Positions 49,813-55,314 of a stretch of DNA of 64,000 nt are shown here, piece by piece; position 1 is the first letter of the stretch, and each line of letters begins with the position of its first letter. The stretch is from Setaria digitata (taxonomy: Eukaryota > Nematoda > Chromadorea > Rhabditida > Setariidae): assembly GCA_003640385.1 (NCBI GenBank), contig RCAB01000007.1:434001-498000 (forward strand). The letters run 5' to 3'. The notes beneath the pieces are model-generated. The model had not been told where the DNA came from and searched no databases. It was given only the letters and a program-made list of their open reading frames with translations. A program made the translations under genes and the position numbers.

Positions 49813-52800
49813 ATGACACGGAATGGACGGAATGGACAGCACTTCGATCCATCAAGCACAGAACGGAAGATGCCAATTCAAACTGTACCGGAAATGAGTG
49901 ATAGGCAACATGTTGCAGTAACAGACATAAATAATACGGAAAAAATAAATTTTCATGATGGCTATATGATGGGTTCTGGAAGGTTAGTTTTCCGAGAAGA
50001 GTTCCAATTTTTGTAAATTTTTTTTATAATTTTGATCCGCACATATCTATAAGGACAAATTACAACGGTATGCTAATTTAGTGAGAAACAGAAGATATCA
50101 TCATGGTTTTTAAAGCGGAAAGTATTTCTTGAAATGGTATGTTTCCAACAATTAATGACATTTTTACTATTTATTATTTTTCAACTTACAAAGTTAAATG
50201 CAAACTAAGAACCTGAATATTTAAGATTGCCTGGAAGTCTAACTGAATTATTTACGCATAATTTCACTGCAACTCGATGCCTCTTCAGATGTATCATTCT
50301 TTAATGTCATTCAGTCTTTTAAGATAAAAATCTTAAGTGGACTGCAGTCTCAAGAAGACAATCTCAGTAACCAACTTTGCAGATGTGCGACACCAAGTCA
50401 AGCAGTAATATTTTCCTAATTGGCCTACTGTTTGCTGTACTTAGCGGTTGCAGTATATCCCTGACAGTAATATTTCTCGGTCGCATAAAGGATATTCTCC
50501 TAACAGATGAACCAACGGCAGCATCTTTCCGCACAGGAATTTATGAACAAATAATTGTCCTTACATTTCTCATCGCTTTCACTGGTGTAACTCATTTTGG
50601 CATGGTAATTTTCACTAATTAGCAGCGATTTTTTAATTTCGTGAAGACGCATAGCATTGTGCTACCACAGTAGTACATCAATGAGTGAGACAACTCATTA
50701 CACTATATCATTTTGAAATGAAGACAAAAAGACCTAAGCAAATTAATTATCAGCTTTTTTATATTTCATCCGGAAAACAGTTATACTTCGAATTTTTCGG
50801 CCTCAGATGAATAAGCGGTCCATTATAAGATCATTTAATTTTCTAAATTATCACTTTTAAGGCTTCTTTCGTGCTATTCTCAACATTAATTAAGTTTAAT
50901 TAGTTCTAAACTATCTCTAGCCGGTCTCATAAGAAAACATTTGTTAGTTGTTGTCGGTTTCGTTATTTGGTAAATTTGTTGTTGTAATGTTAGCTCAATT
51001 AAGCATCTGTCAACCACAGTTCTTGGTGATAGAATNAAAGAAAACATTTGTTAGTTGTTGTCCGTTTTCTTTATTTGGTAAATTTGTTATTGTAATGTTA
51101 GCTCAATTAAGCATCTGTCAACCACAGTTCTTGGTGATAGAATTAGAATTCATCTGAAACGCTGTTATGATGGAATACACAATCAAAAACAATTGGATGA
51201 AGAAGTTGTTAAGGAAATAATTGAGTAAGTTAACTTTTCTTTTTTTTAAATTTAGTATCTGGATCTAAAATTGTTCGTAAAAAAGTAAATTAAATTGAAT
51301 TTTTTATTTGAACTTATTTGATTTGCAAATTTATCTGCTGCTGATGAAGCTAATTCCGTGTCTCAAAAAGAAATTATAGAAATGTTAATTTGATGGAAAA
51401 GGGATCCGAAAGTTTCGGGATGCAATGTCGAAATATTGCAACAGTTATTTTATCACTGATTATTTGTTTTTATTATGAGGCTCGCTTATCACTGGCTATA
51501 TTAAGTGCTGTACCATTAGTCATAATACTGGATATATTTTCGAGAAGGGTAATAGAAAATTTTTCTAATAAAAGATAGGAATTAGTATGAAAAAATTTGA
51601 TATGGACTTTTTAACACAAATTTTGAGATTTGAAAAAAATTCTAAAAATATCAGGACAAGTGATATATGTATTTATGAAAGAATTATCTTTTGCTAGTTT
51701 TTTCTAGAACCTACTGCTGTGACTTTCACTTAAGCAAAGTACTATTATCCGAAAATTATTCTAGCTCCAATGATTTATTTCCTCAAATTATCGAAATTTT
51801 CAGCTTTCGAAGAAAGCAAATGTCCTTCTATCCAACAAGTTTTTCCAAACAGTTCAAATGGAAAAAGAGTTACTATTGCTGAAAAATCCTACTGATAACA
51901 TCGCAAAGGATGAATGCCTGATGAGATTATCAGCGAATATGAGAAGTTGCACTCGGCAAGCCATCTTCCGTCAAGTTTGGAAAAGTTCACAACATGGAAT
52001 TTTGTCTTTTATGCTCTTTACACTTGTTGGCTGTGGACTGCTGTTAGCATTTGTTCATATCATCCTCCTCACAACTTTTCATTTTATATTTTCAACTATT
52101 TCTTGTCAGTGCACACAACATTCCAAGTCTTCGGAAGTATCGAGCTCAAGGAATCTTCCTGAGAGTTCTCAAATCTGGTCACATATTTCATACAATTACA
52201 GGTATGGTGGTTATCTCCTTCGGATAAATCCGATGGTAAAGAAGGGAGACATATTCATTGTAGTATTATCTATGACACTCATTATCGGTAGTATTTCAAC
52301 CACTGCTAAATATTGCAGTGTTATCAAGAAAGGTGCGCATGCTGCAATTTACATTAAAAATCATCGGCAATTTGACCATGGATTCATGGTGAGGATTCTG
52401 AATGTTGTCAGTGAAAATCAAAAAAGTGGTCATATCTATTGAATCACATTTCTTTATTTGACTTTTTCATGCAATTTCTCCTTTTTAGTTAACACAAAAT
52501 GGCAACCAACGTAATTCAGTGAATGGAATAACTACAACATTAATTAGCAGGCCAGGAATCAAGAATTCAGCGGTTTTTCCAAAACAGAATCTAATTATTT
52601 CGTTCATAAGTGGCACTAGGAGTGTTTTGCGCAATTATCATAATCATAAGTTGTTTCTGGTAAGTTTATAGTGCACTTCTTTCTCAAGCTCTTCATACTT
52701 GTTGCGTGGTACAAGTGGAACATTCCGAATAAATGCTCCAGTGTATAACTAGCAGTCATCAGACAACTTCACGAAATCATCTACCAAACAATAACTTAAA

Positions 52801-55314
52801 TTAAGAACTGATCAGAATCACTAAGAACATTGTCCCTGTTCCAGTTGTCTGATGGGAACAGGAAATATTTATAACTCTGAACGACTAAAAGACGTGATAT
52901 TATTTCAGCTTATTGGTTTCGCCTTGGCTATTGCTCGTGGATTTGAACAGGCAGCGTACAATTTAATTATGGAGCAAGTTTTCACGGCGTTGCTTGGTGA
53001 TAGTCCAAATATCAAAGTCTTGACTCTTTGCGCTATTCAGTTCTCCGCCATCGGTTTCGCTGCGTTCATATCAGGAACTGCATCAGTGAATATTTATTCA
53101 TTTCTTTTCAACTAAAGCACATTCATAAAAATTTCTATGGGTAAATTAAGATTCACAATGATATTCTGAAAGATTCCTGAAGGACATCAACTGCATTTTG
53201 CAAATTCAGGAAAACTTCCCTTCAGAAACTGAATTATGAAATGTGGCTTAGATTCTTTTCAGTATAAGATATTAAACTATTAGCAATACTTTTTATAGTT
53301 TACATCTCAAATATCTGCACAAAATCTTTCTAAAACTGGTACGAAGCGGTATATTTATTTTATAGGGATGAAATTAAATTTGATTTTATTAATTCCATTG
53401 ATTTCATTAAGTAATCAACAATTGAATCGCACTTGGCGTCAGCTTGATAAAATAAGAAAACTTTTAAGACTGCACTAGTAACTGTGGCATCGGAACATAT
53501 GGCTGTGTCATTTCGTGTCATTCTGGCTCGTCATTTGCTGAAAATAACCGATAAAGAACCATTGAGTAAATCAGAAATTAATTCTTTGGTGAATGATAAC
53601 CTATCACTAACAGTGAGAGCAAAATCGGTAGGATTTGCTTGTTTTTCTAGACAGCAAATAAACAACAATTATGATATTAGTCTAATTAGTGGGGTGCTTC
53701 TCCTAGAATAAGATTGCAAGCCATCAGTGTAACACTGTTAATTATAATCACTATTATCACATGATATATGACAGCACTTTTTGGTCTGCTGAAAATCTAA
53801 CACAGTTGAACTTGATTGGTATTACATCGTGGTGAAAATGTCCAGGTGAACTTTTCTAGTTATGTCTTGTTCAACCTCATATCATCACTGTAAATTGTAG
53901 CTCTACTATCCCAAATTATCAGAGCTGTTGACACGAATTACATCGATAACAACAAATATTATTATTGGTTTCATCTTCAGTTGGGAAGTAAGTTCTGACC
54001 ATTCTTCACAAGATTTCCTTCTCTTTTGTTTCCTTCACACTTCATTTGAAGCTTTCAAATGATATTTTATTTTTGGCAGATAACTTTGTTGGGACTTTTT
54101 TTTGTCATTTGCTGCCTTTGCATGCAAATTGAAATAGAATTTGGAATATTGACGCATTGTTGCAAACATTCGAATATCAAAGAAAGTCAAGTAAGTCTTG
54201 CATTTCATACTAACTGCATAGGCGATATCATTGTTCAGCATTTCACCTTTATCATTATTATACTAAATGCCATTTATCATGATAAGCTTGGTTTAATTAA
54301 GCATTAAGTCTACTACTTGATTATCATGATGACAAAATGATGGTAGGCATTTTTTGCAGAAGAAGACAAGACTGTTAAAATCATGCAAGCATTTTATACT
54401 CAGAGCAGTAAATTTTTCAATTGCACAAACATTTGGATTCACAGTGAAGACTATATGCTATGCGATGAGTGCATATGTCTGTTATCAGGGATACAAACAT
54501 CAGACACAGGCATTTCTGTAGGCATTTCACAGTTCTTTCATGAAAATTCATTTTTTTCATCTCATTTCAGTATTATTGCGTCTTGTAACAATAGTTTTTC
54601 AGGAGTGTAATTTCCATATATACTGCAAGTCGAGATACTGTACAGCTGCCAAATCTCTTCCGGAAAGTTTGCAAATCATGGCATGCAGTGCATCGAATAT
54701 TCGCTTGTATGCATTGTAAACCATCCAGAACATATATGCCTTCTATTTCAAGAAATATTAGGTTACAGTATTAAATTTAGCTAGAACAATACAAGCCTTC
54801 CCCTTTCTCTTTCACATCCTCATGTTTTCCCTTCCATTCATTAAATACTTTGCTATTTTGAATAAGCAGAGATTTCTGTAGATTTGAGGCGATCTCGTAC
54901 GTAAAATGGACAGTCATTTAATCAAGAAATGAATTTAATTATAATTAAAGAAGAGTCTTCAGAATCCTTGAAAGTCTACTAACTATTGTATATGAATCAG
55001 GCACTGCATCTAGCAAGACATTAAAGAAAATCAAATAATCAGATCAGCACACCCATGGAAATCTCGAGTGCAAAGAACGAATTTTTCATTCATTTCGCTA
55101 TGTAGATGCACCAAGTGAACATTTCCGAGAATCATTCAGAACAACCGCAAATACTTTACCAGAACTATGTGTCAAATCTAGTTACGCTACTCGAAATCAA
55201 GAACTTCCCTTTAAAGACTTTCAAGTTATTAAGAAAGACAAGAGGCGAAAAACAACTCAAAACATCTTGTCGCTCCACGTGTTCATCTTCAATAAACACT
55301 TATTTACACCGTGA
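49813..55314 (+). CDS. P-glycoprotein-like ABC membrane protein lacking both nucleotide-binding domains
   Basis: Exons with agreeing phases: 49813-49982, 50082-50136, 50383-50604, 51112-51224, 51380-51548, 51804-52388, 52489-52659, 52909-53085, 53469-53627, 53901-53987, 54080-54190, 54360-54517, then 54603 onward. TMD1 landmarks are IFLIGLLFAVLSGCSISLTV, LGDRIRIHLKRCY, NVNLMEKGSESFGMQCRNI and FYYEARLSLAILSAVPLVII, then GGYLLRINPMVKKGDIF. TMD2 landmarks are LIGFALAIARGFEQAAYN, ASEHMAVSFRVILARHLL, TTNIIIGFIFSWE and FSIAQTFGFTVKTICYAMSA, then LPNLFRKVCKSWHAVHRIFA. No Walker A, LSGGQ or Walker B motif was found. The last exon either ends at TAA 54774 (782 residues) or splices at 54715 to 55106-55314 (832 residues) with an NBD2-like remnant. 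Exons 51112 and 53469 rely on AAG acceptors, and an assembly join lies just before 51112. Alternatively this is a frame-preserving young pseudogene. Confidence 0.7.
50931..51143. repeat. Direct duplication around a single N inside the ABC-like gene
   Basis: About 100 bases ending in CTTGGTGATAGAAT occur before and after the N at 51036 with a few differences. The second copy leads into the exon carrying LGDRIRIHLKRCY, so this exon's left border is uncertain. Confidence 0.85.
55106..55314 (+). other. Vestigial NBD2-like exon
   Basis: After TATGTAG the frame in phase with the donor at 54715 reads APSEHFRESFRTTANTLPEL, then CVKSSYATRNQELPFKDFQV and IKKDKRRKTT, and stops at TGA 55312-55314. The spacing from HRIFACM, the SYATR (compare SYPTR with the A-loop Tyr) and FKDFQVIKK match the first strands of a P-glycoprotein NBD. 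The sequence then departs where the Walker A loop should be. The assignment rests on this alignment by eye. Confidence 0.45.

Follow-up and report, generated by a model that had tools for sequence, protein, structure and literature searches.

Gene structure and product

A 64-kb window of Setaria digitata contig RCAB01000007.1 (the whole stretch of DNA analysed, 64,000 nucleotides) carries, on its forward strand at 49813–54774, a gene predicted to derive from the P-glycoprotein (P-gp) or ABCB lineage of ATP-binding cassette (ABC) exporters, and we found in it two ABC type-1 transmembrane domains (TMDs), TMD1 followed by TMD2, and no nucleotide-binding domain (NBD). The gene comprises 14 exons and 13 introns, all GT-AG and with phases in full agreement, and encodes 729 residues; the terminal stop codon (54772–54774) is the sole stop in the spliced frame, against 57 and 42 stops per 729 codons in the remaining two frames. 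A preliminary description of this DNA had proposed a continuous two-TMD ABCB-like protein without NBDs, which the spliced frame and the tblastn searches below corroborate; it had also given twelve introns, 782–832 residues and a 3' border at 55314, all of which are revised here. The C-terminus, RNIRLQY followed by the stop, recurs with minor changes in Brugia (P0005), Onchocerca (P0008) and Dirofilaria (P0009), and 55039–55314 is therefore placed outside the gene. The features are as follows, the names of transmembrane helices (TM) and of the intracellular loops (ICL) between them being inferred from alignment.

49813..49982, +, exon 1: start codon and N-terminal cytosolic tail; residues identical in the UniRef S. 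digitata protein P0001
50082..50136, +, exon 2: pre-elbow segment EKQKISSWFLKRKVFLEM; aligned to Dirofilaria P0002
50383..50604, +, exon 3: TM1 and start of TM2; aligned to Dirofilaria and Parascaris
51112..51224, +, exon 4: TM2/ICL1
51380..51548, +, exon 5: end of ICL1, TM3–TM4; the open reading frame (ORF) alone matches PF00664 (E 5e-7)
51804..52042, +, exon 6: ICL2 and start of TM5
52202..52388, +, exon 7: YGGYLL...GDIF, TM5/TM6, end of TMD1
52389..52488, +, 100-bp intron where TMD1 ends; NBD1 is missing around here, with no assembly gap
52489..52659, +, exon 8: short linker and TMD2 elbow (NYHNHKLFL)
52909..53085, +, exon 9: TM7–TM8, with G-x-E-x-x-x-Y-N invariant in 12/12 proteins
53469..53627, +, exon 10: end of TM8/ICL3
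53901..53987, +, exon 11: TM9, ending SWE
54080..54190, +, exon 12: TM10 and shortened ICL4; absent from P0001
54360..54517, +, exon 13: TM11; absent from P0001
54603..54774, +, exon 14: TM12 and C-terminus RNIRLQY-stop; no NBD2 follows

Direct splicing of exon 1 onto exon 3 was rejected, as the phases do not match and the 55-bp exon 2, revealed by P0001, is needed. The public protein P0001 (621 aa) is identical to the first query made from the gene product over the 78% covered; it has exons 1–11 in common with our model and then jumps to exon 14 in a different frame, and so is left without TM10–TM12. Exons 12–14, read in the frame of the present model, align with the relatives, and P0001 looks like a wrong model in which exons 12 and 13 are skipped and exon 14 is misframed. 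Downstream, exons of a DEAD-box helicase lie in opposite orientation on the minus strand at ~57–60.2 kb (PF00270, E 1.1e-16 for 59979–60215).

Absence of nucleotide-binding domains

When the two NBDs of P0012, a fish P-gp, were searched against the 64-kb window by tblastn, as the preliminary description had suggested, nothing came out below E 1, whereas the same queries matched six of six ABC-exporter loci of the same genome, the weakest at E 1.5e-6. In the genome, 25 PF00005 matches were obtained from the 19 candidates scored out of 74, and none of them falls on this contig. At the site of NBD1, 58 family positions stand where P-gp 6qee has 336 residues. As the test for two NBDs (Walker A, signature and Walker B) failed, the gene is classed as ABCB-derived and not as an ABC transporter. 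The linker was considered as a relic of NBD1 and set aside: no relic was shown, and the matches listed, which included 295 shuffles, contained neither of the two real P-gp NBD starts.

The only N within the gene, at 51036, falls in intron 3 beside TMD1, and neither NBD site contains one. Because this single N adjoins TMD1 and not an NBD site, and because the predicted proteins of other species agree, loss of the NBDs through assembly is unlikely. Two near-identical copies of ~107 bp (50931–51143) flank the N at the edge of exon 4 and are either overlapping assembly ends that were left unmerged or two alleles; five further single Ns in the window, at 24958, 25687, 34717, 34814 and 44171, may be similar seams.

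Kinship with ABCB exporters and state of the coupling loops

The family profile of the protein matches ABCB1 at 7.6e-14, and the predicted fold is the ABC-exporter membrane fold. Alignments to P-gp are weak in TM11–TM12 (1.7 bits). Scanned singly, one of the ten exon-bearing ORFs, that of exon 5, matches PF00664, the other nine scanned alone match no ABC family, and a PDB search with the 222-aa ORF alone matched no solved structure. Compared with full ABCB transporters (ABCB1, ABCB4, ABCB11 and nematode PGPs), which have two NBDs, the present protein has none and is far shorter than P-gp (729 versus ~1280 residues). It also has an ICL4, the loop of coupling helix 4, ~30 residues shorter than that of P-gp, seen in the family profile as single gaps, 29 and 32 residues long, against P-gp and ABCB4. 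Across the family, the distance between TM9 and TM11 is 55 residues in nine spiruromorphs, 57 in Parascaris and 58 in Toxocara, compared with ~86 in P0012. The Ascaris lumbricoides protein P0013 has 17 residues between the same anchors, probably an annotation slip in which the TM10 exon was skipped. ICL1, read from the alignment by eye, is a few residues short. Among the columns listed, each with coverage in nine or more of the 12 proteins, the invariant ones are spread from TM3 to TM12, and a TM7 glutamate, E455, is invariant in 12/12 proteins.

No clear parental P-gp emerged among the six loci of the same genome that were compared: an exporter on contig C224 was the nearest, weakly (TMD1, 22.4 bits; TMD2, 16.9 bits), and in TMD2 two further loci scored close to it (L014, 16.6 bits; L015, 16.1 bits). 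At this ABC-exporter locus on C224 (L013, G000:C224:270600-279000), NBD exons occur at two sites, and a TM7 glutamate, RGMELPAF, is found at ~nt 4996. An own-genome search with the exon 5 ORF returned only itself and a weak C224 match (E 0.6), and no recent source copy was seen. At G000:C761:10224-10445 there is a strong ABC_membrane match, and no NBD match is listed for that contig; this could be a further locus that is partial or lacks an NBD, or the NBD may simply have gone unscored.

Family, tree and age of the domain loss

The family assembled here comprises 14 proteins, contributed by 12 named species in the Spiruromorpha and Ascaridomorpha. The first homology search retrieved Setaria, Dirofilaria (two models), Loa, Cercopithifilaria, Brugia (a cluster of eight sequences), Elaeophora, Litomosoides, Onchocerca flexuosa, Thelazia and Parascaris, and a further search added Ascaris and Toxocara (two models). 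Taxonomic lineages were taken up for Setaria, a filaria (Spiruromorpha), and for Parascaris and Thelazia. Identity to the Setaria protein is 57–62% in other filariae, 48% in Thelazia and 34–35% in ascarids over most of the length; the sole match outside the family is a fish P-gp (20% identity). Precomputed annotation assigns PF00005 to 0/14 family proteins, and a rescan of ten relatives found PF00664 above the cut-off in nine and weakly in Thelazia, and PF00005 in 0/10. The NBD-less form is thus predicted in related filariae as well.

Homology candidates were limited to 0.55–1.75 of the query length and to those sharing exact words, with ~8000 scored per search, so that relatives above ~1144, 1276 or 1239 residues, depending on the search, or distant ones, could be missed; the search limited to ~1276 residues did not re-find P0010 and P0011. 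No relative outside Spirurina came to light within this weak reach. In the gene tree the ascarids form a group (support 1.00 and 0.95), and the branching within Spiruromorpha is consistent with vertical descent, support being low (0.35–0.71) at several nodes among the filariae and for Thelazia.

Same-shape predicted proteins in at least 11 other parasitic worms suggest an ancient, retained gene and not one in decay. Collectively, these comparisons indicate that the locus is very probably a functional-looking ABCB-lineage gene descended from a full P-gp-type transporter (TMD1-NBD1-TMD2-NBD2) and kept as a two-TMD protein in Spirurina; the simplest history is that both NBDs were lost once, before the divergence of Ascaridomorpha and Spiruromorpha. 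An origin from a two-TMD P-gp with both NBDs cleanly missing, and not by random decay, was also the proposal of the preliminary description and stands; its alternative of a recent pseudogene conflicts with an NBD-less form predicted in 12 species and down to 34–35% identity.

Proposed mechanism and known parallels

With the NBDs absent, the ATP cycle is gone. How the protein would then act is a more tentative question, for which we prefer ATP-independent transport, at somewhat less than an even chance, by analogy with SbmA-like proteins and the MsbA membrane domain. The 12 helices would still form the ABC-exporter cavity, and switching between inward- and outward-open states would be pulled by substrate or ion (proton) gradients in place of ATP, much as bacterial SbmA/BacA work after the loss of NBDs and coupling helices.

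Natural NBD-less proteins with ABC-exporter membrane domains are known in bacteria from the passages of PMC13316013 on SbmA/BacA (SLiPTs), which describe proteins that lost NBDs and coupling helices and are proton driven via a glutamate ladder. The resemblance lies in ABC-exporter TMDs without NBDs and in lost coupling helices, fully in SLiPTs (PMC13316013) and here probably at least in ICL4. The SLiPTs differ in being bacterial and dimeric, each subunit having one TMD plus TM0, in their glutamate ladder and in their YddA-like ancestor, whereas the present protein has both TMDs in one chain, a P-gp origin and no ladder shown. At E up to 1, the SbmA/BacA family was not among the Pfam matches of ten relatives, PF00664 and some weak unrelated families being named; SbmA/BacA structures were likewise absent from the structure-search matches listed, a result that does not exclude likeness to them. 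A second parallel is MsbA reduced to its membrane domain (MsbA-MD), which is an ABC-exporter membrane domain without NBD and, according to PMC4979069, moved ethidium on a pH gradient; it is laboratory-made, half-size and bacterial, whereas the present protein is natural and conserved.

Several observations weigh against ATP-independent transport by a kept protein. ICL2 and ICL3 are near the normal P-gp length, so the docking loops are not all gone. No glutamate ladder was identified in the family, and E455, tried as a newly gained proton site, was dropped because the ordinary C224 exporter carries the TM7 glutamate too. Conservation at 22 P-gp pocket positions (as listed in a passage of PMC3857843) does not differ significantly from that at 220 other membrane positions (0.81 versus 0.77, p = 0.35). 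The relatives, moreover, are known as predicted proteins and not as DNA, several of them starting late (N-terminally partial).

Alternative explanations

The main rival, possible but rather unlikely, is that transport was lost altogether and that the protein serves as a scaffold, chaperone or dominant-negative or regulatory partner of full P-gps or ABCB half transporters. Pseudo-proteins usually arise by losing catalytic parts while the fold stays, and here the ATP machinery is gone, the pocket sites are not specially conserved and NBD-bearing full ABC exporters coexist in the same genome. Against such a role, the helices of both domains are kept in one chain family-wide, and the invariant columns are dispersed from TM3 to TM12 and could not be shown to gather in one surface patch.

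Conversion into a channel or lipid-scrambling pore, with the cavity open or gated by ligand or voltage, is unlikely. CFTR (ABCC7), an ABC-exporter fold in non-pump use, became a channel from an ABC exporter, but it retains both NBDs and is ATP-gated. The predicted fold is the same, alternating access would be easily short-circuited without NBDs, and the family consensus is charged at some P-gp pocket sites (R, D and K at human 195, 343 and 953); no pore-lining pattern was shown, however, and the alignment to P-gp is weak in TM11–TM12.

That a separate ATPase protein provides the NBDs in trans, leaving the complex an ABC transporter still, is quite improbable. The near-P-gp length of ICL2 and ICL3 speaks for such docking, but the ICL1/ICL4 site receives NBD1 in P-gp, and with ICL4 ~30 residues short and ICL1 a few short that site would be damaged.

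A decaying pseudogene preserved by chance is very improbable: Setaria and other filariae share ~60% protein identity, which does suggest fast evolution, and a table in the review PMC10300789 includes one Dirofilaria ABC 'pseudogene', but the spliced frame has 0 internal stops (57 and 42 in the other frames) and the predicted proteins extend to 12 species and down to 34–35% identity. Least probable of all is an assembly or annotation artefact with the NBD exons in a gap or elsewhere, since the seam marked by the N in the 107-bp duplication adjoins TMD1 and the NBD sites have no N, and since, even with several relatives being partial predictions, NBDs are absent from the window and from 11 other species' predicted proteins, all of which would have had to drop the same exons.

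Literature and significance

No description of a two-TMD, NBD-less ABC-derived protein in animals was found in open-licence PMC papers among the matches listed, and the identifiers LOAG_11527, Tcan_05127, DINM_001766 and X798_06876 have no mention in open-licence PMC papers. The passages searched of the Parascaris and Toxocara P-gp papers (PMC7423980, PMC10042841), and of PMC6693208 and PMC3378599, do not mention the gene. The review PMC10300789 states in general terms that some transporters have a single NBD or TMD, and the Dirofilaria 'pseudogene' of its table may be this gene, already seen and so labelled.

At its boldest, and doubtfully, the ATP-independent transporter would be a P-gp turned secondary (ion-driven) transporter in an animal lineage, having shed its two ATPase domains together with one or more coupling loops, most simply once before the ascarid/filaria split, its 12-helix protein ATP-free since then: a eukaryotic counterpart of bacterial SbmA arising from a full-length ABCB. 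The gene would allow a test of the P-gp fold working without ATP, and its carriers are parasites of people and livestock. It is also a warning for nematode ABC gene inventories, as short P-gp models can be real genes.

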